From: Candidatus Stoquefichus sp. SB1
GTDB lineage: Bacteria; Bacillota_I; Bacilli_A; Erysipelotrichales; Coprobacillaceae
Direction: 5' to 3'
DNA length: 64,000 nucleotides
Assembly: GCF_001244545.1 (NCBI RefSeq)
Contig: NZ_LN852695.1
Span: forward strand, 589,158-653,157
Position numbers and translations under genes: made by a program. Below are positions 50,572 through 60,875 of this stretch, piece by piece. Under the pieces are notes generated by a model. The model saw nothing but the letters and a program-made list of their open reading frames with translations, had not been told where the DNA came from and ran no database searches. Numbering within the stretch: position 1 is the first letter of the stretch; each line of letters opens with the position of its first letter.

Positions 50572-50664
50572 ATGAAAAGAAGTACAATGAGTAAAATATT
50601 AGTATTTATTCTCGTGTTATCTATGATTCTACCTTTGATTAGTTATTTTGCATTTGGAGGATAG
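50572..50664 (+). CDS. 30-residue single-helix membrane peptide between ftsH and hslO
   Basis: ATG after AGGAGAAAACAA encodes MKRSTMSKILVFILVLSMIL and ten more residues, one hydrophobic helix after a basic start. Its 3' end carries the hslO ribosome site (GGAGGATAGACG) and stops 3 nt before hslO, so the two are coupled. Too short for standard gene callers. Its basic-start, single-helix form recalls the DUF4044-type small proteins of lactic acid bacteria. Function unknown. Confidence 0.6.
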   Translation: MKRSTMSKILVFILVLSMILPLISYFAFGG

Positions 50665-50667
50665 ACG

Positions 50668-51546
50668 ATGAAAGATTATTTAGTAAGAGGAATTGTAAAT
50701 TCTAAAAACTGTCGTGTCATGTGTTGTACAACAACACAGCTTGTTGAAGTTGCACGTCAAAAACATGGGTTATGGCCAACTGCTTCAGCAGCATTGGGAC
50801 GTATGATGTCAGTGACACTTATGATGGGTGCTATGAATAAAAATAAAGAAAAAATGACAGTAACTATTAATGGTGGTGGACCGATTGGAACAATGCTTGC
50901 CACAACAAATAGCGATGGCAAAATCAAAGCTTTTGTAGCCAATCCAGAAGTTCATTATACTTATAATGACACAGGAAAATTAGCTGTTGGTGTAGCAGTA
51001 GGGAAAGAAGGAAGTCTACAAGTTATTAAGGATATGGGGTTAAAAGAACCATTTGTTGGAACTGTTCCTTTACAAAGTGGTGAAATTGGTGATGATTTCT
51101 CATATTATTTTATGGTTTCTGAACAAATTCCATCAGTTGTTTCAGTTGGTGTTCTTGTGAATGATACAAATGAGATTTTAGCTAGTGGTGGTTTTATTAT
51201 TCAACTATTACCAGAGGCTACAGAAGAAGATATTCAGTATATTGAAGAAAAAATGAGAAATTTCCCACCAGTTTCTTCTTTAGTAAATGAAGGAAAAACA
51301 CCTGAAGAAATTCTACAAATGATATTTGATGATGTGGAAATATTGGAATCACAGGATTTATTTTTTGAATGTGATTGCAGTAAAGAAAAGATGCGTTCAA
51401 CCTTAATAACAGTAGGAAAAGATGAGATAGAATCAATGATTCATGAGGATCATGGTTGTGAAATCAAATGTCAATTCTGCAATGAAGCATATCATTTTAA
51501 TGAAACTGAATTACAAGAGTTATTAGATGAAATGAATGAATCATAA
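50668..51546 (+). CDS. hslO: Redox-regulated chaperone Hsp33
   Basis: 292 residues. DYLVRGIVNSKNCRVMCC at the N-terminus and the zinc-binding switch CDC (about 233) and CQFC (about 266) are intact. Holds unfolded proteins when the cysteines are oxidised. Position after ftsH is typical. Terminator 51555-51592. Confidence 0.95.
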   Translation: MKDYLVRGIVNSKNCRVMCCTTTQLVEVARQKHGLWPTASAALGRMMSVTLMMGAMNKNKEKMTVTINGGGPIGTMLATTNSDGKIKAFVANPEVHYTYNDTGKLAVGVAVGKEGSLQVIKDMGLKEPFVGTVPLQSGEIGDDFSYYFMVSEQIPSVVSVGVLVNDTNEILASGGFIIQLLPEATEEDIQYIEEKMRNFPPVSSLVNEGKTPEEILQMIFDDVEILESQDLFFECDCSKEKMRSTLITVGKDEIESMIHEDHGCEIKCQFCNEAYHFNETELQELLDEMNES

Positions 51547-51554
51547 ATATTTTT

Positions 51555-51592
51555 AAATAGCTGTTTTCAAAAATTGAAGATAGCTATTTTTT
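51555..51592 (+). terminator. Terminator of hslO
   Basis: AAATAGCT (51555-51562) pairs with AGCTATTT (51582-51589), followed by T. Confidence 0.85.
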
Positions 51593-51600
51593 GTCATTGA

Positions 51601-51740
51601 ATGAAATGAAAAAGAAGACACGGATGGGGGTGTGCCTTCTTCTTCTAGGTTTACCAATATTAGGAATATAACTAATCGATAACTTACATCTATTTTAATG
51701 GGGAGGAAAAATAGAGGGGAAAAGTGTAAGCTATCTGTTA
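51601..51740 (-). ncRNA. Candidate C-rich-loop small RNA B (two hairpins)
   Basis: Minus strand, 5' to 3': hairpin GATAGCTTACA/TGTAAGTTATC (51736-51726 with 51688-51678, one mismatch) with an inner CTATTTT/AAAATAG hairpin whose loop reads CCTCCCC and a flanking TTTTCCCCTC. A second hairpin AAGAAGGCAC/GTGTCTTCTT follows (51641-51632 with 51621-51612) with loop ACCCCCATCC and TTTTTC after it, as an intrinsic terminator. Loops complement Shine-Dalgarno sequences. No protein-coding sense on either strand; no clear promoter found. Confidence 0.5.
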
Positions 51741-51771
51741 ATATCATTGACAATCTGAAAAGTTTTATACA

Positions 51772-51870
51772 AAAAAAGTAAAAAGACAGTTGAGGGGAGA
51801 GGGAAAACAACTGTCTTTTCTATTATTTTATGAGTAACATCAAGGTTGGGAGGGAAGATGTTACTGAAAT
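51772..51870 (-). ncRNA. Candidate C-rich-loop small RNA A (two hairpins)
   Basis: Minus strand: hairpin AGTAACATC/GATGTTACT (51865-51857 with 51841-51833) with a 15-nt loop containing TTCCCTCCC, then a perfect 12-bp hairpin AAAAGACAGTTG/CAACTGTCTTTT (51819-51808 with 51792-51781) whose loop reads TTTTCCCTCTCCCCT, followed by TTTTTACTTTTTTT, a strong terminator. Same stem-plus-CCCTCC-loop theme as candidate B just downstream. Comparable in layout to the LhrC/RoxS group of Gram-positive small RNAs that pair with ribosome sites. Confidence 0.55.
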
Positions 51871-51953
51871 ATCATGAAAAAATTATTTGCGATTTTTATC
51901 TGAATTTTTTAAATATCACCTCCTACAAGATATAATATATCATTCATTTGTCT

Positions 51954-51981: not shown

Positions 51982-51998
51982 GTGTTATGGTGAAAAAA

Positions 51999-53000
51999 AT
52001 GAAAATAGGAAATGTAGAATTAGAAAATAGAATTATTATGGCACCATTAGCTGGTATTACAAATGTTGCCTTCAGAAAAATTATTAAAGAGTTTGGTGCT
52101 GGGCTTGTTGTTAGCGAAATGGTGAGTGATAAGGCTTTATGTTATGGAAATCAAAAAACAATAGAAATGCTTAATGTTGATGAAAATGAGCATCCTATGA
52201 GTATTCAGATTTTTGGTGGAGAAGTGGAAACAATGGTGAAGGCAGCACAATTTGTTGATCAAAATTCAAATTGTGATATTATCGATATTAATATGGGTTG
52301 TCCTGTTCAAAAGGTTATCAAAGCACATGCCGGTAGTTATTTATTACAACATCCCCAATTGGTATATGATATTGTTAAGAATGTTGTTGAAGCTGTAAGT
52401 AAGCCAGTCACAGTCAAAATAAGAATTGGTTATGATTTTGATTCAATAAACTGTATTGAGATTGCGCAAATGATTGAGCGTGCTGGAGCGAGCGCAATAG
52501 CTATTCATGGTAGAACACGTTCACAGATGTATGAAGGACATGCTGATTGGTCTTGGATAAAAAAAGTAAAAGAAGTAGTCTCTATTCCTGTTATTGGAAA
52601 TGGTGATGTTAAAACTGCTCAAGATGCTAAACGTATGTTAGATGAAACAGGCTGTGATGCGGTGATGGTAGGTCGTGCTGCCTTAGGGAATCCTTGGGTA
52701 ATCAGACAGATGGTAGAATATGTTGAACATGGAATCTTGTTAGATGAACCAACCATCGATGAGAAGATTGATCAATGTCTAAAGCATGCACAAAGATTAA
52801 TTCCAGTTGAGGGTGAAAAAAATGCCATAAGACAAATGCGAGGACATGCTCCATGGTATATTAAAGGATTGAAATCTGCTTCTCAAGTTAAAAATCGTTT
52901 ATCAAAGATTGAAAGTTATCAACAGTTGGAAGCAATTTTAGAAGCATATCGTGTTTATCTACATACTGGGGATAAAACTGCATTTGAAAAATTTGAATAA
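51999..53000 (+). CDS. dus: tRNA-dihydrouridine synthase
   Basis: FMN enzyme that reduces uridines in tRNA D-loops. 333 residues. [46 protein letters not shown] (catalytic Cys), [18 protein letters not shown] and VIGNGDV are DusB-like hallmarks. Start placed at [11 protein letters not shown] with a weak GGTG site; ATG at 51987 would add four residues; the frame open to 51948 overlaps the promoter. Sits after hslO as in other Firmicutes. Confidence 0.93.
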
Positions 53001-53887: not shown

Positions 53888-53956
53888 GGATTGTTATAGC
53901 AAAGATATGGCTACACAAAACCTGTTTACAGATACTTTTTCTGTGACGGGTTTTTC
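53888..53956 (+). promoter_or_regulatory. RAT antiterminator site and overlapping terminator
   Basis: GGATTGTTATAGC...GGCTACACAAAACC (53888-53922) matches the ribonucleic antiterminator of BglG/LicT systems. It overlaps a terminator formed by AAACCTGT...ACAG with CTGT...ACGGGTTT (about 53918-53956) plus T runs. Binding of the antiterminator protein encoded next would block the terminator and allow the PTS genes to be read. Confidence 0.85.
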
Positions 53957-53977
53957 TTTTTGGAGGGAGAGATTTCA

Positions 53978-54820
53978 ATGATTATTAAGAAAATTTTAAA
54001 TAATAATGTCGTGATTACATTAAATGATCAACATGAAGAAATCATTGTGATGGGAAAAGGTTTAGCTTATGGGAAAAGACCAGGAGAGACAATAGATTCT
54101 CAAAAGATTAGTAAAACCTTTGAAATGAGCCTTAAAGAAAGCCAAAGAAAGATGATTGATATGTTAAAAGATATTCCTATTGAATATATGGAAATATCTG
54201 ATCAAGTGATTCAAAAAGCGAGAAAAGAATTGAATAATGATATTGATGATTCTCTCTATATAAGTTTAACAGATCATATTCATACAAGTATCGAAAGATA
54301 TCGTGAAGGAATTCTTTTAAAAAATCAATTGTTATTAGAAATTAAGCATTTTTATAAAAAGGAATATGAGTTAGGGTTATGGGCACTTTCGTTAATTGAA
54401 GCAAAATATCAGATTCATATGGATGATGATGAAGCAGGATTTATTGCATTACATATTGTGAGTAGTGAAGTTGGTAAGAATATTAGTGATGTTTATGAAA
54501 TGACAGGGTTTATTCAAGGAATATTAGAGTTGGTAAAAAATTATTTTCATAGAGATTTTGATGAAGATTCTTTATCTTATTATCGTTTTGTAACACATTT
54601 AAAGTTTTTTGGATTAAGAGTTTTTAATCAAACGAAACATAATCAGGATGAATCTTTAAATAATGATCTTTTAGAAATTATGAAAGAAAAATATGTTCAA
54701 CCTTATTTATGTGCTTTGGAGATTAAATCATTTATTGAAAGAAAGTATGATTATTCTTTAGAGGATGAAGAAGTTTTATTTTTAACGATACATGTAGCAA
54801 AAATCATTTCTAATAAGTAA
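53978..54820 (+). CDS. BglG/LicT-family transcriptional antiterminator
   Basis: 280 residues. N-terminal RNA-binding CAT domain (IIKKILNNNVVITLN, GKGLAYGKRPGE), then two PRD domains with His residues phosphorylated by the PTS (LYISLTDHIHTSIERY, IALHIVSSE; ITHLKFF-like and LTIHVAKI). Binds the RAT just upstream and so controls its own operon. Start is the ATG after GGAGGGAGAGATTTCA; an earlier in-frame start (53960) lies in the terminator. Confidence 0.93.
   Translation: MIIKKILNNNVVITLNDQHEEIIVMGKGLAYGKRPGETIDSQKISKTFEMSLKESQRKMIDMLKDIPIEYMEISDQVIQKARKELNNDIDDSLYISLTDHIHTSIERYREGILLKNQLLLEIKHFYKKEYELGLWALSLIEAKYQIHMDDDEAGFIALHIVSSEVGKNISDVYEMTGFIQGILELVKNYFHRDFDEDSLSYYRFVTHLKFFGLRVFNQTKHNQDESLNNDLLEIMKEKYVQPYLCALEIKSFIERKYDYSLEDEEVLFLTIHVAKIISNK

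Positions 54821-59084: not shown

Positions 59085-60875
<1,791 letters not shown>

Follow-up and report, generated by a model that had tools for sequence, protein, structure and literature searches.

Which strand of the intergenic stretch between hslO and dus is used in Candidatus Stoquefichus sp. SB1, a spore-forming gut bacterium (genome size 3.59 Mb), and do the hairpins found there form one RNA or several? These questions were addressed in a window of 64,000 nucleotides, which is the whole stretch of DNA analysed, together with related genomes, among which only one (G001) belongs to the same genus.

Two units between hslO and dus

The intergenic stretch is bounded by hslO, encoding Hsp33 (50668..51546, plus strand; PF01430, E 1e-96), and dus, encoding a tRNA-dihydrouridine synthase (51990..53000, plus strand; PF01207, E 3e-104), and a separate terminator at 51555-51589 belongs to hslO. 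A sequence-only reading had placed here four minus-strand hairpins with C-rich loops, and all four are present, at 51608-51866. A census across the window yielded 48 perfect hairpins (stem of at least 8, loop of 6-18). A GGG/CCC loop is present in four of them, and the block accounts for three of these four. The minus strand folds far more strongly than the plus strand (z = -8.0 and -2.9, respectively, against dinucleotide shuffles).

The same reading had divided the block into two similar tandem units. Two units do exist, each ending in a minus-strand terminator, but they are alike in layout only, and no direct repeat joining them was found. The units, hereafter RNA-A and RNA-B, are two different genes with different promoter types.

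RNA-A, with a predicted transcript at 51771..51927 (minus strand; ends predicted), is a putative second C-rich sRNA with a SigA-like promoter, and its U-tract abuts the -35 element of RNA-B. Its hairpin 1 (51833-51865, minus strand) has a 9-bp stem and the loop TTCCCTCCCAACCTT, with a similar hairpin in L113, while hairpin 2, the terminator (51781-51819, minus strand), has a 12-bp stem and the loop TTTTCCCTCTCCCCT followed by the T-run TTTTTACTTTTTTT. Transcription would start from a SigA-like extended -10 element (TGATATATTATA; 51931..51942, minus strand) divergent from dus, in which TGNTATAT(T)TATA is retained in 8/8 aligned sequences. Near the 5' end lies a perfect Shine-Dalgarno sequence, AGGAGGTGAT (51915..51924, minus strand), that has no well-placed start codon and might conceivably stabilise the RNA through ribosome binding, in the manner of Stab-SD elements. 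The corresponding AGGAGG(T/C)GATA is kept in L113, L116 and L035-L037, altered in L039 and lost in L112, where RNA-A is found only in a degenerate version. Sister genomes and Massilimicrobiota likewise have the promoter, 5' element, C-rich loop and terminator ahead of dus; in Massilimicrobiota the terminator loop is not rich in C, and an inserted gene separates the unit from RNA-B.

Several other features of the window were recorded. Between ftsH and hslO there is a 30-aa hydrophobic ORF, MKRSTMSKILVFILVLSMILPLISYFAFGG (50572-50664, plus strand), with a ribosome-binding site; a Pfam search with it gave no match, and a similar short ORF occupies the same position in at least 12 relatives. A T-box leader lies at 59121-59352 (plus strand; RF00230, 102.7 bits). 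At 53900-54820 (plus strand), inspection by eye revealed a terminator-like leader, then a BglG/LicT-antiterminator-like protein, with a PTS transporter downstream, which is probably a sugar-responsive antitermination operon.

Structure, strand and distribution of RNA-B

The predicted RNA-B transcript of about 136 nt (51603..51738, minus strand; ends predicted) consists of a conserved core and a terminator. The core (51648..51738, minus strand), delimited with the covariance models R1 and R2 and by alignment, is a two-helix hairpin with C-rich internal and apical loops. In the hairpin itself (51676-51735, minus strand), the outer stem of 10-11 bp leads to an internal loop with CTTTTCCCC, and the inner stem of 8 bp closes a loop containing CCTCCCC on the minus strand; the rest of the core is a single-stranded tail that has GGTAAACC at its end. 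The terminator hairpin (51608-51645, minus strand) has a 14-bp stem and the loop ACCCCCATCC, followed by a T-rich tail.

A covariance search in relatives, one of the checks suggested with the sequence-only reading, found RNA-B in near-invariant form and in one copy each in 31/43 family genomes, and no second copy was found in the host genome or in the other family genomes. Near-identical copies of 51648-51738 are at times accompanied by other neighbour genes. A search of 315 genomes with the second covariance model gave no RNA-B in the order outside its own family, and elsewhere in the class one weak match was obtained (E = 0.04); such large searches use strict filters, which distant relatives may escape. 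The tandem pair had not been recognised as any known RNA, in agreement with our search of the window region against the whole Rfam library at relaxed thresholds, which gave only chance-level matches to unrelated families. Six divergent RNA-B members were likewise without an Rfam match, and the papers searched contained no description of RNA-B. Identity with 6S RNA was rejected, the only RF00013 match of the genome being located on contig C3. By its sequence and distribution, RNA-B is a predicted new, uncatalogued sRNA family, limited to the spore-forming part of one Erysipelotrichales family.

The consensus structure is paired in 97.9% of alignment cells, and one compensatory change (C-G to U-A) is common to three relatives; because the stems vary too little, covariation support is weak. 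The core loops are retained across genera in the alignment. The terminator loop contains CCC in 15 of the 23 loci in which a terminator was called by a strict rule, and loops lacking a C-rich motif include GAAA in L114, ATTT in L138 and TTAAT in L130. A C-rich terminator loop is thus common but not universal, and the constant part of RNA-B is the core hairpin. A coding function was rejected as well: the sole ATG in the window's core stands directly before TAA, and no frame would survive the indels of 1-2 nt by which the loops of different species differ. RNA-B is an intergenic, terminator-ended, non-coding RNA with unpaired C-rich motifs.

The comparative data support transcription from the minus strand, as had been proposed: by the strict rule, the terminator occurs on the RNA strand in 23/30 loci and on the opposite strand in 0/30. 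An element lying upstream of dus in many genomes, with GGA-rich loops on the plus strand, could alternatively be a plus-strand functional RNA, either a dus leader or a GGA-loop RNA titrating a CsrA-like protein. This is highly improbable, given the 30/30 loci without a plus-strand terminator and the far stronger folding of the minus strand; besides, the adjoining gene is not dus in L033 and apparently differs in L123-L125. The dus leader was rejected on account of the missing terminator together with the changing neighbours. RNA-B can with high confidence be regarded as a minus-strand RNA gene. In L123, L124 and L125, two more hairpins with C/U-rich loops were observed directly upstream of RNA-B, away from dus, in a layout resembling RNA-A.

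Promoter of RNA-B and the link to sporulation

Two conserved blocks precede RNA-B, TG[T/A]ATA from -33 and a [C/A]A..ATA-like block at -10 to -4 (numbered relative to the first core base), which differ from TTGACA/TATAAT and are not of the housekeeping type. In the window they read TGTATA (51766..51771, minus strand) and AATGATA (51742..51748, minus strand), the latter being CATAATA or CATACTA in many relatives, and the 17-nt spacer is that of the SASP promoters of the family, which the -35-like block also matches. In the spore formers that have been studied well, SASP genes belong to the targets of SigG. Nine promoters of SASP genes from eight family genomes aligned as TGNATA-17-CANN[A/C]TA, and a matrix built from these nine alone had its best match at exactly -33 in 28/30 RNA-B loci. 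When each genus or subgroup was represented by a single row, its mean score on RNA-B was 9.3 (maximum in 2000 column-permuted matrices 5.6, so that 0/2000 equalled it) and 17 was the only well-fitting spacer length, figures to be read with the SASP register having been fixed after RNA-B was seen and with the RNA-B loci being related by descent. The -10 of the window's own genus, AATGATA, is a weaker match to the SASP pattern. The likeness suggests that RNA-B is probably under forespore control from a putative SigF/SigG-type promoter. Since such promoters are used inside the developing spore, RNA-B probably regulates protein synthesis at the spore stage.

The distribution of sigma factors is consistent with this. 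Strong SigF/SigG-like matches were obtained in 33/43 family genomes, and RNA-B is present in 31 of those 33, the two others (G016 and G025) both being fragmented assemblies; it is present in 0/10 of the family genomes with RpoD-like matches only. RNA-B thus combines conserved C-rich loops with restriction to genomes that have SigF/SigG-like factors. In an RpoD tree of 40 genomes, presence and absence of RNA-B and the sporulation factors amount to one split, so the co-occurrence fits a sporulation role and is not independent proof of it. In the host genome a SpoIIGA-like frame is followed by a SigE-SigG pair, SpoIIAA-SpoIIAB-SigF-like frames and SASPs are encoded as well, and SpoIIE is encoded upstream of the block within the window. 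The sigma factors of the host give their top scores to the expected families, yet these are below the NCBIfam equivalog cut-offs.

Known C-rich RNAs and a possible mode of action

The sequence-only reading had compared the hairpins with LhrC, RoxS/RsaE and csRNAs; because of the SigF/SigG-type promoter of RNA-B, the nearest analogue is CsfG instead. CsfG (S547) of Bacillus subtilis has C-rich/CU-rich loops, is highly conserved, occurs in spore formers only and is under SigF and SigG control in the forespore (PMC3574147, PMC8216469, PMC9147052). It was first mistaken for an opposite-strand leader, and its locus is that of Rfam RF00516 'ylbH', modelled on that strand (PMC3574147, PMC8216469). 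RNA-B shares with it the small size, the conserved C-rich loops, the strong conservation and the occurrence in spore formers; forespore control of RNA-B is a prediction. The neighbours are different (hslO/dus for RNA-B, ylbG/ylbH for CsfG), and CsfG associates with Hfq, whereas Hfq is absent from the eight genomes of RNA-B hosts tested. RF00516 gave no match to either strand of the window at E up to 5, and none in the host genome and 16 other family genomes, while the B. subtilis control was detected. As far as can be told, RNA-B would work like CsfG; membership of the CsfG family is not supported. A sub-threshold RF00516 match was noted in another family of the class (L274, G328:C1:1406638-1406743; 32.3 bits, E 4e-5).

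Streptococcal csRNAs are small stem-loop RNAs with anti-Shine-Dalgarno loops, in several copies under CiaR; RNA-B, by contrast, is single-copy, and no repeat was recognised in its promoter. RoxS/RsaE and FsrA of low-GC bacteria use C-rich regions to contact mRNAs at the Shine-Dalgarno region (PMC8216469). RNA-B has C-rich regions as well; it differs in promoter type and has no Rfam match to these RNAs. LhrC of Listeria binds its target through CU-rich motifs located in a stem-loop, in a single-stranded part and in the terminator loop alike (PMC4132741). The layout of the window's RNA-B is similar, but there is no Rfam match, one copy is present instead of five under LisRK, and some relatives do not have the terminator-loop motif.

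We favour, with moderate confidence, a reading in which the locus encodes two independent minus-strand sRNAs and RNA-B is made in the forespore, its loops masking Shine-Dalgarno sites without Hfq. Strand, conservation, single copy, terminator, likeness to SASP promoters and the lack of Hfq in eight hosts were read from the sequences; what we infer is that the RNA is transcribed at all, that this happens in the forespore, that it pairs with ribosome-binding sites, and which mRNAs it targets. A forespore sigma factor, SigG and/or SigF, would transcribe RNA-B up to its intrinsic terminator, and the two-helix hairpin would present the conserved loops UUCCCC and CCUCCCC. Their most likely action in the forespore would be to base-pair with mRNAs at G-rich Shine-Dalgarno sequences (GGGGAGG and similar) and so prevent translation, with no need for Hfq. 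Motifs of the UCCC type in sRNAs bind Shine-Dalgarno sequences in low-GC bacteria (PMC4132741, PMC8216469), and by analogy RNA-B should mask GGGGAGG-type sites, a mode of action that we consider rather likely. Such sites before ATG number 9-14 per genome, more than in a reversed-pattern control in 6/6 genomes.

The longest match of RNA-B to a leader is 15 nt (AATGGGGAGGAAAAA); the gene behind this leader encodes a TrpX-like lipoprotein, and the match is present in G000, G001 and G029. At L242 (G000:C4, near 494830), where the gene is that of a TrpX-like transporter lipoprotein, the 15-nt match to the apical loop region covers the Shine-Dalgarno sequence; the leader there looks T-box-like. The gene was rejected as a family-wide target, as the match is lost in closer homologues in Massilimicrobiota, and no target conserved across the family was found, this candidate occurring in three genomes only. 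Duplex energies were set aside as target evidence, as they ignore internal structure.

Two other readings concern the promoter and the partner of RNA-B. Both RNAs might be SigA-driven C-rich sRNAs of growing cells, similar to RoxS/RsaE or csRNAs, with RNA-B starting about 20 nt further upstream and TATAAA as its -10. Vegetative sRNAs do share the C-rich loop design, and several Thomasclavelia-type loci have TTAAAA-17-TATAAA (9-10/12 SigA matches), but the fit is poor or absent in other genera, where the block is TGAATA, and the conserved CAT.ATA block with its fixed 17-nt spacing is left unexplained; we regard this reading as unlikely. Alternatively, RNA-B may be a real forespore RNA whose C-rich loops have a partner other than Shine-Dalgarno sequences, either a protein or a second RNA such as a G-rich sponge. 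Its stems and loops are near-invariant, more so than is usually required of a base-pairing regulator that has many targets; a search for conserved targets found none, and C-rich sRNAs can have G-rich sponge RNAs (RosA; PMC8216469). However, CCUCCCC and UUCCCC directly complement G-rich ribosome-binding sites, and such motifs pair in this way in other low-GC bacteria (PMC4132741); we regard a protein or sponge partner as quite improbable. Shine-Dalgarno masking by a forespore RNA-B remains the preferred reading. A more doubtful extension of it is that the two RNAs form a handover pair with similar masking loops, RNA-A made by SigA in growing cells and RNA-B by SigG in the forespore; if true, growing cells and forespores would silence overlapping sets of mRNAs, each with its own RNA and without Hfq.

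Sporulation-specific sRNAs are known from Bacillus, and RNA-B would be a separate, near-invariant, single-copy case in a distant lineage of gut bacteria that includes Thomasclavelia and Massilimicrobiota. For CsfG, no mRNA target had been found as last reported (PMC8216469, PMC9147052). If both RNAs carry C-rich loops under forespore control, the masking of Shine-Dalgarno sequences in the forespore may belong to spore development in general, and comparison of the two lineages would make the question of targets testable.
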